This document shows positions 30,458 to 49,222 of a DNA stretch of 64,000 nt, in pieces (position 1 is the stretch's first letter; every line of letters begins with the position of its first letter). The notes under the pieces are model-generated. The model did not search any database. It saw only the letters and a program-made list of their open reading frames with translations, and was not told where the DNA came from. The position numbers were made by a program, and so were the translations under genes. This stretch comes from Desulfurococcales archaeon (GTDB lineage Archaea > Thermoproteota > Thermoprotei_A > Sulfolobales > Desulfurococcaceae), in the NCBI GenBank assembly GCA_027022365.1, contig JALVYU010000011.1:80168-144167 (forward strand). The letters are read 5' to 3'.

Positions 30458-31204
30458 ATGCCGTCCATCGGCAATGTAGTGATCAGACTGATCGGCGTGA
30501 AAAAAGTATATGTGACAGGCACTGTGAAGACATGGGGTCTAAGGGGGGTAGATCTGGAAGTCTATAGGGGGGAATTTATATCGATTATGGGGCCGAGCGG
30601 GAGCGGGAAATCAACTCTCTTAAACATGATTGGGCTTCTTGACAAACCGACGGAAGGAAAAATAATTATTGATGGGAGAAATGCGGCAGAACTAACATCG
30701 AAAGAACTAGCATATCTTAGGAACAGGAAAATAGGATTTGTGTTTCAGTCATTCAACCTCATCAATAGGTACACAGTACTTGAAAACATTGAGCTTCCAC
30801 TCATTGTAAGGAGTGTGCCTAGGAGGACAAGGATTGAGAAGGTAAAGAAGGCATTACTAATGGCTGGCGGTGATCTCTCATGGCTTCCCAAGCGTCCAAT
30901 ACAGCTCAGTGGTGGACAACAACAACGTGTAGCAATAGCGAGGGCTCTTGTAGGTGATCCAGAGATCATACTGGCTGATGAACCGACCGGGAACCTGGAT
31001 AGGGCAAGCTCCCGCGCGGTCATCGAGACTTTTGTGAGGCTTAACAGGCAGGGCCAGACAATTGTTATGGTTACGCATGACCCTGAGGTTGCAAATTGCA
31101 CAGAGAAAATATACTTGCTTCGAGACGGCCGTATAGTAGGGGTTAAGGAGCCTGATCTCGATAAATGTATCTTAAAGACTGTATCACCTACTGCAAAGAA
31201 ATAG
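30458..31204 (+). CDS. ABC exporter ATPase (MacB/LolD-like)
   Basis: A 248-residue ATPase. Walker A is GPSGSGKST (residues 45-53), the signature LSGGQQQRVAIARAL, Walker B IILADEPTGNLD, and the switch His is in VTHDPEVA. The sequence FVFQSFNLINRYTVLENIEL is typical of the LolD/MacB/FtsE group, which drives FtsX-type permeases and works on substrates outside the membrane rather than pumping across it. It opens an operon with a giant surface protein and an FtsX-like permease. Confidence 0.9.
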   Translation: MPSIGNVVIRLIGVKKVYVTGTVKTWGLRGVDLEVYRGEFISIMGPSGSGKSTLLNMIGLLDKPTEGKIIIDGRNAAELTSKELAYLRNRKIGFVFQSFNLINRYTVLENIELPLIVRSVPRRTRIEKVKKALLMAGGDLSWLPKRPIQLSGGQQQRVAIARALVGDPEIILADEPTGNLDRASSRAVIETFVRLNRQGQTIVMVTHDPEVANCTEKIYLLRDGRIVGVKEPDLDKCILKTVSPTAKK

Positions 31205-46524: not shown

Positions 46525-47061
46525 TTGGTGGAGACTATCTACGACTATGTTATTTCGAAGAAACTAGAACTGGTAAAGCCCACGATCATAGTCGGTGGCA
46601 TCAAGTCGACGACGATCAAAGCCATCGATCTAACAATCATAGGACGAGTACAAGTCAATGGCACGATATCGGCTGACAAACTAACGGTCATAGGCCACGG
46701 ACTTGCATCCACGATAGAAGTAAAAGAGGCATATCTGATCGCCAATGGTCCGTTATTCATTGATGTCCTTAAAGCAAACAAGGCTCTGATCATAGGCCGA
46801 AGAGGTTCCATCATAGCTGATTTCATCGAGGCAGACACGCTGTTCATGGAGAGATCATATGCTTCGAGAATAGTTGTTCAAACACTTAAACTATCGTGGG
46901 GGGTTGGGATAAGAATACTGGAAAATGCCCGCGAAATAGTGTTCTATGATCCACATGTGTGGTTCGAGGAGATCCGGGCCGAAAACCCAGCGATCACTTA
47001 TAAGTACAGCATTCAAAAGCTCTCATCCGCGCCTCAACGACTTTCTCGCGAAGATTCATGA
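46525..47061 (+). CDS. bactofilin-like beta-helix protein
   Basis: A 178-residue protein made of short repeated beta rungs (VGGIKSTTIKAIDLTIIGRV, ISADKLTVIGHGLASTIEVK, LIIGRRGSIIADFIEADTLF), the pattern of bactofilins, which polymerise into cytoskeletal filaments. It starts at TTG 46525 or GTG 46528 behind GGGAGAAG. Its C-terminal 22 codons are overlapped on the other strand by the gene at 46994-47206. A scaffold role is likely but inferred. Confidence 0.6.
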   Translation: MVETIYDYVISKKLELVKPTIIVGGIKSTTIKAIDLTIIGRVQVNGTISADKLTVIGHGLASTIEVKEAYLIANGPLFIDVLKANKALIIGRRGSIIADFIEADTLFMERSYASRIVVQTLKLSWGVGIRILENAREIVFYDPHVWFEEIRAENPAITYKYSIQKLSSAPQRLSREDS

Positions 47062-47206
47062 GGGTAGACGCTATAAGAAACAGTTCTCCAGGACTTATCT
47101 TGTCTCCGGGCTTGATCCTGCCTATCCGGCTTTCAATCTTATCGATAAGGTCTATTGCTTCCTCAAGCACCGGGACAAGATCCTTACAGTCGCTCTCTGA
47201 AGCCAT
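46994..47206 (-). CDS. small helical protein, convergent overlap
   Basis: A 70-residue acidic helical protein (VPVLEEAIDLIDKIESRIGR, GELFLIASTLMNLREKVVEA). The GGTG SD 6 bases before the ATG at 47206 and its protein-like composition argue that it is real, although its last 68 bases overlap the 3' end of the bactofilin-like gene. No family recognised. Confidence 0.55.
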   Translation of the reverse strand: MASESDCKDLVPVLEEAIDLIDKIESRIGRIKPGDKISPGELFLIASTLMNLREKVVEARMRAFECCTYK

Positions 47207-47549: not shown

Positions 47550-47575
47550 ATGTTGTAGATAAATACATAGTATTA

Positions 47576-47681
47576 CCCCCCGGGGGAAAGATTTAAAGGC
47601 ATATATATTCTCTTCTTGAGGTATAATGAGACCTCCTCATCGGAGGGGTGGGGGGTATCTTTTTATTTCCCCCCGGGGGAG
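47576..47681 (+). promoter_or_regulatory. decarboxylase promoter and G/C-palindrome leader
   Basis: CCCCCCGGGGG occurs at 47576-47586 and again at 47669-47679. The first abuts GGGAAAG-ATTTAAA (47584-47596), a BRE/TATA pair, so RNA should start near 47617. The leader then has a CCTCC-TCATC-GGAGG hairpin (47632-47646), a G6 run (47650-47655) that can pair with the second C6 (47669-47674), and the SD GGGGGAG (47675-47681) that directly follows that C6. Alternative pairings could hide or free the SD. Confidence 0.5.
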
Positions 47682-47691
47682 AAAACATTGA

Positions 47692-48096
47692 ATGGGGGTG
47701 TCTGGGATGACGGGGGTTATCTATATGGTTCGGGAGGAGGGGGGAGAAACTCCCGTTGTGGGGAGACATGTTTACGGCGAGCTTTACGGCTGCAACCCGG
47801 AGATCCTCAGCAATGAGAAAATGATTGAAGAGATAATCAAAGAGGCTGCAGAGATAGGGGGTTTCACATTACTTGATGTGAAGTCATGGAAGATAAGCCC
47901 GGGAGTCAGTGCTGTTGGAATAGTCTTGGAGAGCCATATCTCCATCCATACGTGGCCCGAGTATGGTTTTGCAACTGTTGATGTTTATACTTGTGGCTCT
48001 GAGGGAGACCCCATAGCTGCTTTCAAGCATATAGCCAAAAGGTTTGAGGCTAAAAGATATACCATGAAATACACTGATCGAAGCTACCGGGAATAG
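47692..48096 (+). CDS. pyruvoyl-dependent decarboxylase (crenarchaeal ArgDC/AdoMetDC family)
   Basis: A 134-residue proenzyme of the AdoMet decarboxylase fold, for polyamine synthesis. It should cleave itself between Glu80 and Ser81 in VLESHISIHTWPEYG, turning Ser81 into the pyruvoyl group; VGRHVYGELYGCN and VDVYTCGSEGDP are the other family blocks. The wording SHISIHTWPEYG and the end YTDRSYRE are closer to the crenarchaeal arginine decarboxylase variant than to true AdoMet decarboxylase, so arginine to agmatine is my preferred reaction. The leader is unusually structured. It ends 4 bases before the next gene. Confidence 0.85.
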   Translation: MGVSGMTGVIYMVREEGGETPVVGRHVYGELYGCNPEILSNEKMIEEIIKEAAEIGGFTLLDVKSWKISPGVSAVGIVLESHISIHTWPEYGFATVDVYTCGSEGDPIAAFKHIAKRFEAKRYTMKYTDRSYRE

Positions 48097-48100
48097 TGGT

Positions 48101-49222
48101 TTGGACAGAATATATATCGTCGGAGCTGGGCCTGCAGGACTTACCACGAGTTTTTTCCTAAGCAGAGAAATCCCTTCTAGCAGTATAACCGTTTTCGATC
48201 ATAGGAGAAAACCCGGTGTTCCACCTTACTGCACAAGCATAGTTGGTATAGAAACCGCTGAGTTCTACAAGGAAATACTTGGGGAGAAGGTGATAGAGAA
48301 GAAATACTATTCTATAACCTTCCATACGCCCACAAGGAAATACACGGTGTACTCTAAGAAACCAATAGCATATAGGCTTGCTCGCCCCTATCTCGAGCAG
48401 AAACTATGTGATAAACTACTAGACATGGGTGTCGAGATAAGGTTGGGGGAGCATGTTCTCCCCGCCCGCCCCGGGGCCTTGGTTGCTGGTGGGAAGGAGT
48501 ATGAAGGCCTTGTAATAGCGGCCGATGGTGCTTATAGTCTCTTCAGGAAGAAATACTGTGGATGGATGCCGGAGACAATTATGGGTCTACAAAGAATAGT
48601 TAGAGTCGATAAACGGTTAGAGAATAGTTTCCATGTCTTCTTCGATCTTGACACACCCTGTTTCTATCAATGGATTGTGCCTGTGGATGGAGATAAAACT
48701 GTACTAGTTGGATACGCCGACTGCAAGATTCGCTCTGACCCAAATAGGATATTTGATAAGGTGCTCAGAAAAGCCGGTTTACGCCTCCTATCGAGTGAAC
48801 GTATTTTCGGCGGCCCAATAATAAGGGATCTACCATACAGACCGTACAACATAGGAGGGAGAATATATTTCATAGGAGATAGTCTTCCAGCCTCCAAACC
48901 GGTCACTGGGGGAGGCCTTTACGGTATAAAGGAGTTAGTGCCAGCCCTGACTAGGGCTATCGTGAAGGGTGATCCCAGGATCTATGACCAGAGCGTTGAA
49001 CGCCTTAAGAAAAGGTTTCGAAAGTCATGGCTTCTAACAAGGCTGTTTAAGCATAAGTACTGGGTGATAGCGGACCTGTTCTCTGTTTTTCAGGGAGAAT
49101 TTGAGCCGGGCCTATTTGATCTTCATGAAAAAATTGTTTGGAGAGCCCTACCCCGTCTACCCACGCTCCTGTATATCCTATTATGTTCTCTGTTTATCCG
49201 AACACGGCGATCTCGTGGATGA
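48101..49222 (+). CDS. geranylgeranyl-reductase-like flavoprotein
   Basis: A 373-residue FAD enzyme. The dinucleotide fold IYIVGAGPAGLTTSFFLSRE opens it; VIAADGAYSLFRK and RIYFIGDSLPASKPVTGGGL are the second and third flavin contacts of the geranylgeranyl reductase family, which saturates isoprenoid chains of archaeal lipids or quinones. The C-terminal part (about residues 300-373) is basic with a hydrophobic end. It starts at TTG 48101 just after the decarboxylase gene and so may be co-transcribed. Its end overlaps a convergent gene by 29 bases. Confidence 0.78.
   Translation: MDRIYIVGAGPAGLTTSFFLSREIPSSSITVFDHRRKPGVPPYCTSIVGIETAEFYKEILGEKVIEKKYYSITFHTPTRKYTVYSKKPIAYRLARPYLEQKLCDKLLDMGVEIRLGEHVLPARPGALVAGGKEYEGLVIAADGAYSLFRKKYCGWMPETIMGLQRIVRVDKRLENSFHVFFDLDTPCFYQWIVPVDGDKTVLVGYADCKIRSDPNRIFDKVLRKAGLRLLSSERIFGGPIIRDLPYRPYNIGGRIYFIGDSLPASKPVTGGGLYGIKELVPALTRAIVKGDPRIYDQSVERLKKRFRKSWLLTRLFKHKYWVIADLFSVFQGEFEPGLFDLHEKIVWRALPRLPTLLYILLCSLFIRTRRSRG

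Follow-up and report, generated by a model that had tools for sequence, protein, structure and literature searches.

Archaeal operators of the Lrp, LysM and CopR type are palindromes that overlap or flank the BRE/TATA region and the transcription start. The locus described here resembles them in having palindromic sites over or beside BRE/TATA and start that are repeated upstream; it differs in its pure G/C tracts, its single target gene, an orientation that varies between families, and a regulator that is putative. Archaeal promoter G-quadruplexes (PMC12873603; PMC7565180) likewise bring G-rich tracts close to promoters, whereas the tracts reported here are gene specific and deeply conserved, include C-runs and palindromes, and form no conserved four-tract unit. 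Control of a polyamine-related gene would be a theme shared with the bacterial spermidine riboswitch (PMC10853860), but that switch is a folded RNA aptamer, and our locus has neither a fold beyond that of shuffled sequences nor an Rfam match. The enzyme is the same as one already known, the crenarchaeal arginine decarboxylase SSO0536 / Saci_1363 argD (Giles and Graham 2008, via PMC10407285 and PMC5684531); the relevant passages of the latter two papers describe the enzyme and its knockout and do not mention promoter tracts. The Saci_1363 transcript drops in starvation alongside those of other polyamine genes (PMC6335949), which marks the gene as regulated, the drop itself not showing the cause. 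Within the open-licence literature we found no polyamine-responsive control of archaeal genes; since our search covered such papers only, an earlier description elsewhere is possible.

The palindromes lie before an open reading frame of the AdoMetDC-fold family (PF02675, 1.2e-36; TIGR03330, 1e-37) in the window, the whole 64-kb stretch of DNA analyzed. In a tree this gene groups with the Sulfolobaceae ArgDC copy, which we take to be the SSO0536/Saci_1363-like arginine decarboxylase, and stands apart from the KGG-type AdoMetDC copies (support 90/90 on the ArgDC side and 99/97 on the AdoMetDC side). The window genome carries a second AdoMetDC-fold copy, and in many Desulfurococcaceae genomes the ArgDC copy is the sole one kept. 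Judged by family, tree and copy pattern, the window gene is a crenarchaeal pyruvoyl arginine decarboxylase of predicted activity; the initial annotation was right to place the palindromes before a polyamine-pathway gene. Translation probably begins at the ATG at 47707 and not at 47692, because relatives align their Shine-Dalgarno (SD) site GGGGGTGAT and an ATG at the former; a start at 47692 is possible. With the start at 47707, the GGGGG of the palindrome is probably not the SD site. Five nucleotides past the decarboxylase stop is a FAD-dependent geranylgeranyl-reductase-like ORF (48101-49222, plus strand), probably co-transcribed.

Table 1. Features of the arginine decarboxylase promoter and gene (window coordinates)
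Feature	Position	Strand	Comparative evidence or remark
P1, upstream palindrome CCCCCCGGGGG, operator-like	47576..47586	.	Six relatives have this palindrome 61-62 bp before P2
GATTTAAAGG, TATA-like box after P1, role uncertain	47590..47599	+	Identical in G005, absent from other genera
G-element GGGGTGGGGGG, directly 5' of BRE/TATA	47645..47655	+	G-run peak at -10..-6 from TATA, 53/94 promoters
BRE/TATA region TATCTTTTTATTT	47656..47668	+	Aligns with TTTATAAG/TTTAAA of relatives
TATA box, conserved	47660..47667	+	Between G6 run and P2
P2, second palindrome CCCCCCGGGGG	47669..47679	.	Between TATA and predicted start site; identical in G005
Predicted transcription start region	47687..47691	+	Inferred from TATA distance
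GGGGGTG, G-run and likely Shine-Dalgarno site	47694..47700	+	Aligns with GGGGGTGAT of relatives
Arginine decarboxylase proenzyme (crenarchaeal ArgDC, AdoMetDC fold), predicted	47707..48096	+	PF02675, TIGR03330, tree; alternative in-frame start 47692
G-run within first codons	47712..47716	+	0 changes vs G005 over 47645-47730

When the 64-kb window was scanned, CCCCCCGGGGG was found at exactly the positions of P1 and P2, two copies against 0.02 expected from dinucleotide shuffles, and the whole 1.74-Mb genome holds only three; the third sits within a long ORF, which rules it out as a further promoter site. The two identical blocks are therefore real and far above chance. Also present are the C6 run, the CCTCC and GGAGG arms, and the G6 run at 47650-47655. 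The description of the blocks as 11-base palindromes needs a small correction: the two copies are identical over 11 bases, and the palindrome proper is the 10-bp CCCCCGGGGG followed by one C. The 150 bp from 47576 contain seven G-runs or C-runs of five bases or longer; elsewhere in the window the highest count is three, and a Markov null for run density per 150 bp reaches four at most; the cluster includes further G-runs at 47694-47698, 47712-47716 and 47739-47744. The CCCCCCGGGGG pair is part of a set of G and C runs found around the promoter and start of the arginine decarboxylase gene across the Crenarchaeota. In four genomes (G000, G005, G006 and G019) three close G5 tracts occur mainly in tRNA- or rRNA-like repeats, a CRISPR-like array and the ArgDC promoter. 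The CRISPR-like repeat on contig C1 of G000, GTCCCCACACGCGTGGGGGTGAACCG (about 1733-2963), resembles bacterial type I-E repeats, and this contig is a possible contaminant.

The sites are strongly conserved within the genus. Between the window and G005, a genome of the same genus, there are 0/36 changes over 47572-47607 and 0/62 over 47645-47706 (100% identity in both), against 100/322 (31%) in the intergenic DNA upstream and 34/346 in the later coding part; over 47645-47738 the count is 2/94 (Fisher p of 7e-11 when compared with intergenic DNA, 0.017 when compared with coding DNA). The core is conserved as well as the coding part in other species pairs, and in more diverged pairs it stands well above the upstream DNA. 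The initial annotation had named a lack of conservation in close relatives as grounds for abandoning its proposal; the palindromes are conserved before a polyamine-pathway gene, so that objection fails. P1 and P2 lie 61-62 bp apart in six genomes (L007, L009, L011, L013, L014 and L015) and 92-93 bp apart in the window's genus, some three helical turns more, with unconserved filler between them. Across the family P2 begins 10-12 nt after the start of the TATA box; P1 is absent from many members, and some retain only the G half of P2. Taken over all tracts, there is no general helical phasing.

Across a wider range, 147 genomes were searched, 62 genera had a match, and the upstream stretches were compared by counting, within the 170 nt that precede the conserved GKHVYG motif, every G-run or C-run of five bases or longer. 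The ArgDC promoters of one order (n = 91) carry 2.82 runs each and 84% have two or more, against 0.52 and 4% for AdoMetDC paralogs (n = 27) and 0.24 and 3% for shuffled promoters; these counts include related genomes, and one paralog (L127) among the ArgDC rows slightly lowers the ArgDC figure. With TATA boxes chosen by a simple matrix of our own making, the runs fall in a consistent order: a G-run, BRE/TATA, a C/G palindrome or run, the predicted start, and further G-runs where the ribosome would bind and at the start codon. The upstream peak is sharp (Table 1) and no runs lie over the TATA box; between TATA and the predicted start there are 42 G and 32 C runs, and at +30 to +55, around the start codon, 85 G and 3 C (n = 94 promoters), the median distance from TATA to start codon being 45 nt. 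Sulfolobaceae have G-runs after the ATG as well. In Thermoproteales the ArgDC copies carry runs and most AdoMetDC copies are without them; the pattern is absent from Thermococcus and from most non-crenarchaeal members of the phylum that we examined, the others being mixed or without it. The most extreme case is Vulcanisaeta distributa (L050, upstream of match 5001), with five G7-8 runs between TATA and GVHVYG. One AdoMetDC-side copy (L118; G008:C1:100002) is unlike the others in having a GGGGG-TATA promoter and more G tracts.

Whole-genome pattern searches recovered no other promoter of the same build in the genomes searched. Nearly all inspected matches that might have marked other genes sharing the operator lie in coding sequence or RNA-like repeats, and a G6+TATA match at window position 30567, considered as a second promoter, is inside an ABC-ATPase gene; with the matches in genes or repeats, no regulon was found. 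An orthologous CCCCCGGGG pair, 42 bp apart in a long imperfect hairpin with no evident gene (L149 and L150; G018:C1:734161 and G026:C1:47634), is possibly a structured RNA. Divergent from the decarboxylase is a 70-aa helical ORF (46994-47206, minus strand) whose relatives are found near the decarboxylase in G005, G008, G039, G043 and L040. G008 alone has a divergent G-element and TATA facing this small ORF, which there has a promoter of its own of that kind. As a candidate regulator it was set aside: it lies near the gene in few families only and has no Pfam match.

We suggest as the likeliest account, giving the idea about an even chance, that these sites form a cis-regulatory operator on double-stranded promoter DNA, through which a putative regulator exerts feedback control of arginine decarboxylase. 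The regulator would recognize the G5-6/C5-6 tracts, binding at the two sites that flank TATA, the G-element and P2, and also at P1 farther upstream; once bound it would block TBP/TFB or RNA polymerase. Polyamines and the agmatidine modification of tRNA-Ile both derive from agmatine. As the element is confined to a single gene and agmatine is the product of its enzyme, the signal may be product feedback by agmatine or a polyamine, a step less certain than the regulator itself. What we observe is a conserved site at BRE/TATA and start, with palindromes at set spacings over unconserved filler that are absent in part of the family. An operator is consistent with the concentration of ordered runs round TATA at ArgDC and not at AdoMetDC genes, with unchanged cores amid diverged intergenic DNA, and with the uniqueness of the promoter's build among the genomes searched. 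The stretch from TATA to the start uses G and C runs alike, in keeping with recognition of the duplex, and P1, being upstream of the promoter, would be untranscribed. Against an operator, the spacing and orientation of the tracts vary between families beyond what a rigid dimer would tolerate, the tracts are not helically phased in general, P1 is missing in many genomes, and the preponderance of G past the start is unexplained by pure duplex recognition; this last bias suggests an additional mRNA role or a strong SD function.

The main rival to a DNA operator is that the downstream G-runs work in the mRNA. Two to four G5-6 tracts in a short leader and the first codons could adjust translation, either by strong anti-SD binding or as an RNA G-quadruplex stabilized by polyamines, and we regard this as a somewhat unlikely account. 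It would fit the G bias past the start, the extension of G005 conservation into the first codons, the window's best plus-strand G4Hunter score, at 47694, and the retention by Sulfolobaceae of GGGGGG...ATGATGGGGG. It leaves unexplained P1, the G-run preceding TATA, and the palindromes and C-runs that lie from TATA to the start; past the start, many orthologs carry fewer than four G tracts, or a C-run, and the downstream G-runs may simply be SD sites. The RNA switch first proposed for this locus, a long leader in which the G6 run or the CCTCC arm pairs with the C6 run or the SD, is in our view highly improbable. Transcription in archaea starts about 24-28 nt past the TATA centre. The proximal TATA box, conserved throughout, thus predicts a start past both palindromes and past 47680, the point beyond which the initial annotation had considered its switch refuted, and with such a start P1, P2 and the G6 and C6 runs would be untranscribed. 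The complementary runs exist, and a longer transcript, possible in the window's genus only, could arise from the TATA-like GATTTAAAGG at 47590, which G005 keeps. In other genera no TATA box follows the upstream palindrome, which therefore cannot act there as RNA and acts, if at all, as DNA. Nor does the 75-base structured leader find support in folding: the supposed leader (47617-47730) and the short leader fold no better than shuffles (z -0.51 and -0.16), with -5 and 0 kcal/mol at 85 °C, in a family of hyperthermophiles. An Rfam search of the 64-kb window returned tRNA only, with no match at the ArgDC leader, and in G005 an indel alters the CCTCC arm.

There are two further readings. Polyamines affect oligo(dG)-oligo(dC) tracts, and such tracts round TATA might change form with polyamines (to A-form, triplex or quadruplex) and set promoter strength directly. 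The use of either orientation and the loose spacing are easier to reconcile with a structural property than with a rigid protein site, and the single target is on the polyamine pathway; the palindrome spacing, being set within the family, speaks against this idea, which we consider decidedly unlikely. If true, it would be a protein-free DNA polyamine sensor at the gene of the first polyamine enzyme, kept over an entire archaeal order and Thermoproteales. There is similarly little chance that the G-run preceding TATA belongs to the constitutive core promoter, as an extended BRE or the preference of a TFB paralog, with SD sites and drift accounting for the rest: its strict position beside BRE and its restriction to G would agree, but it occurs at one gene and not at other promoters, and P1 and P2 would have no explanation.

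The run set separates arginine decarboxylase from its AdoMetDC sister at the promoter level. Knockouts of argD exist in S. acidocaldarius and S. islandicus, and with a deeply conserved element at a single gene and genetically tractable hosts, feedback control of polyamine synthesis in archaea can be tested directly.
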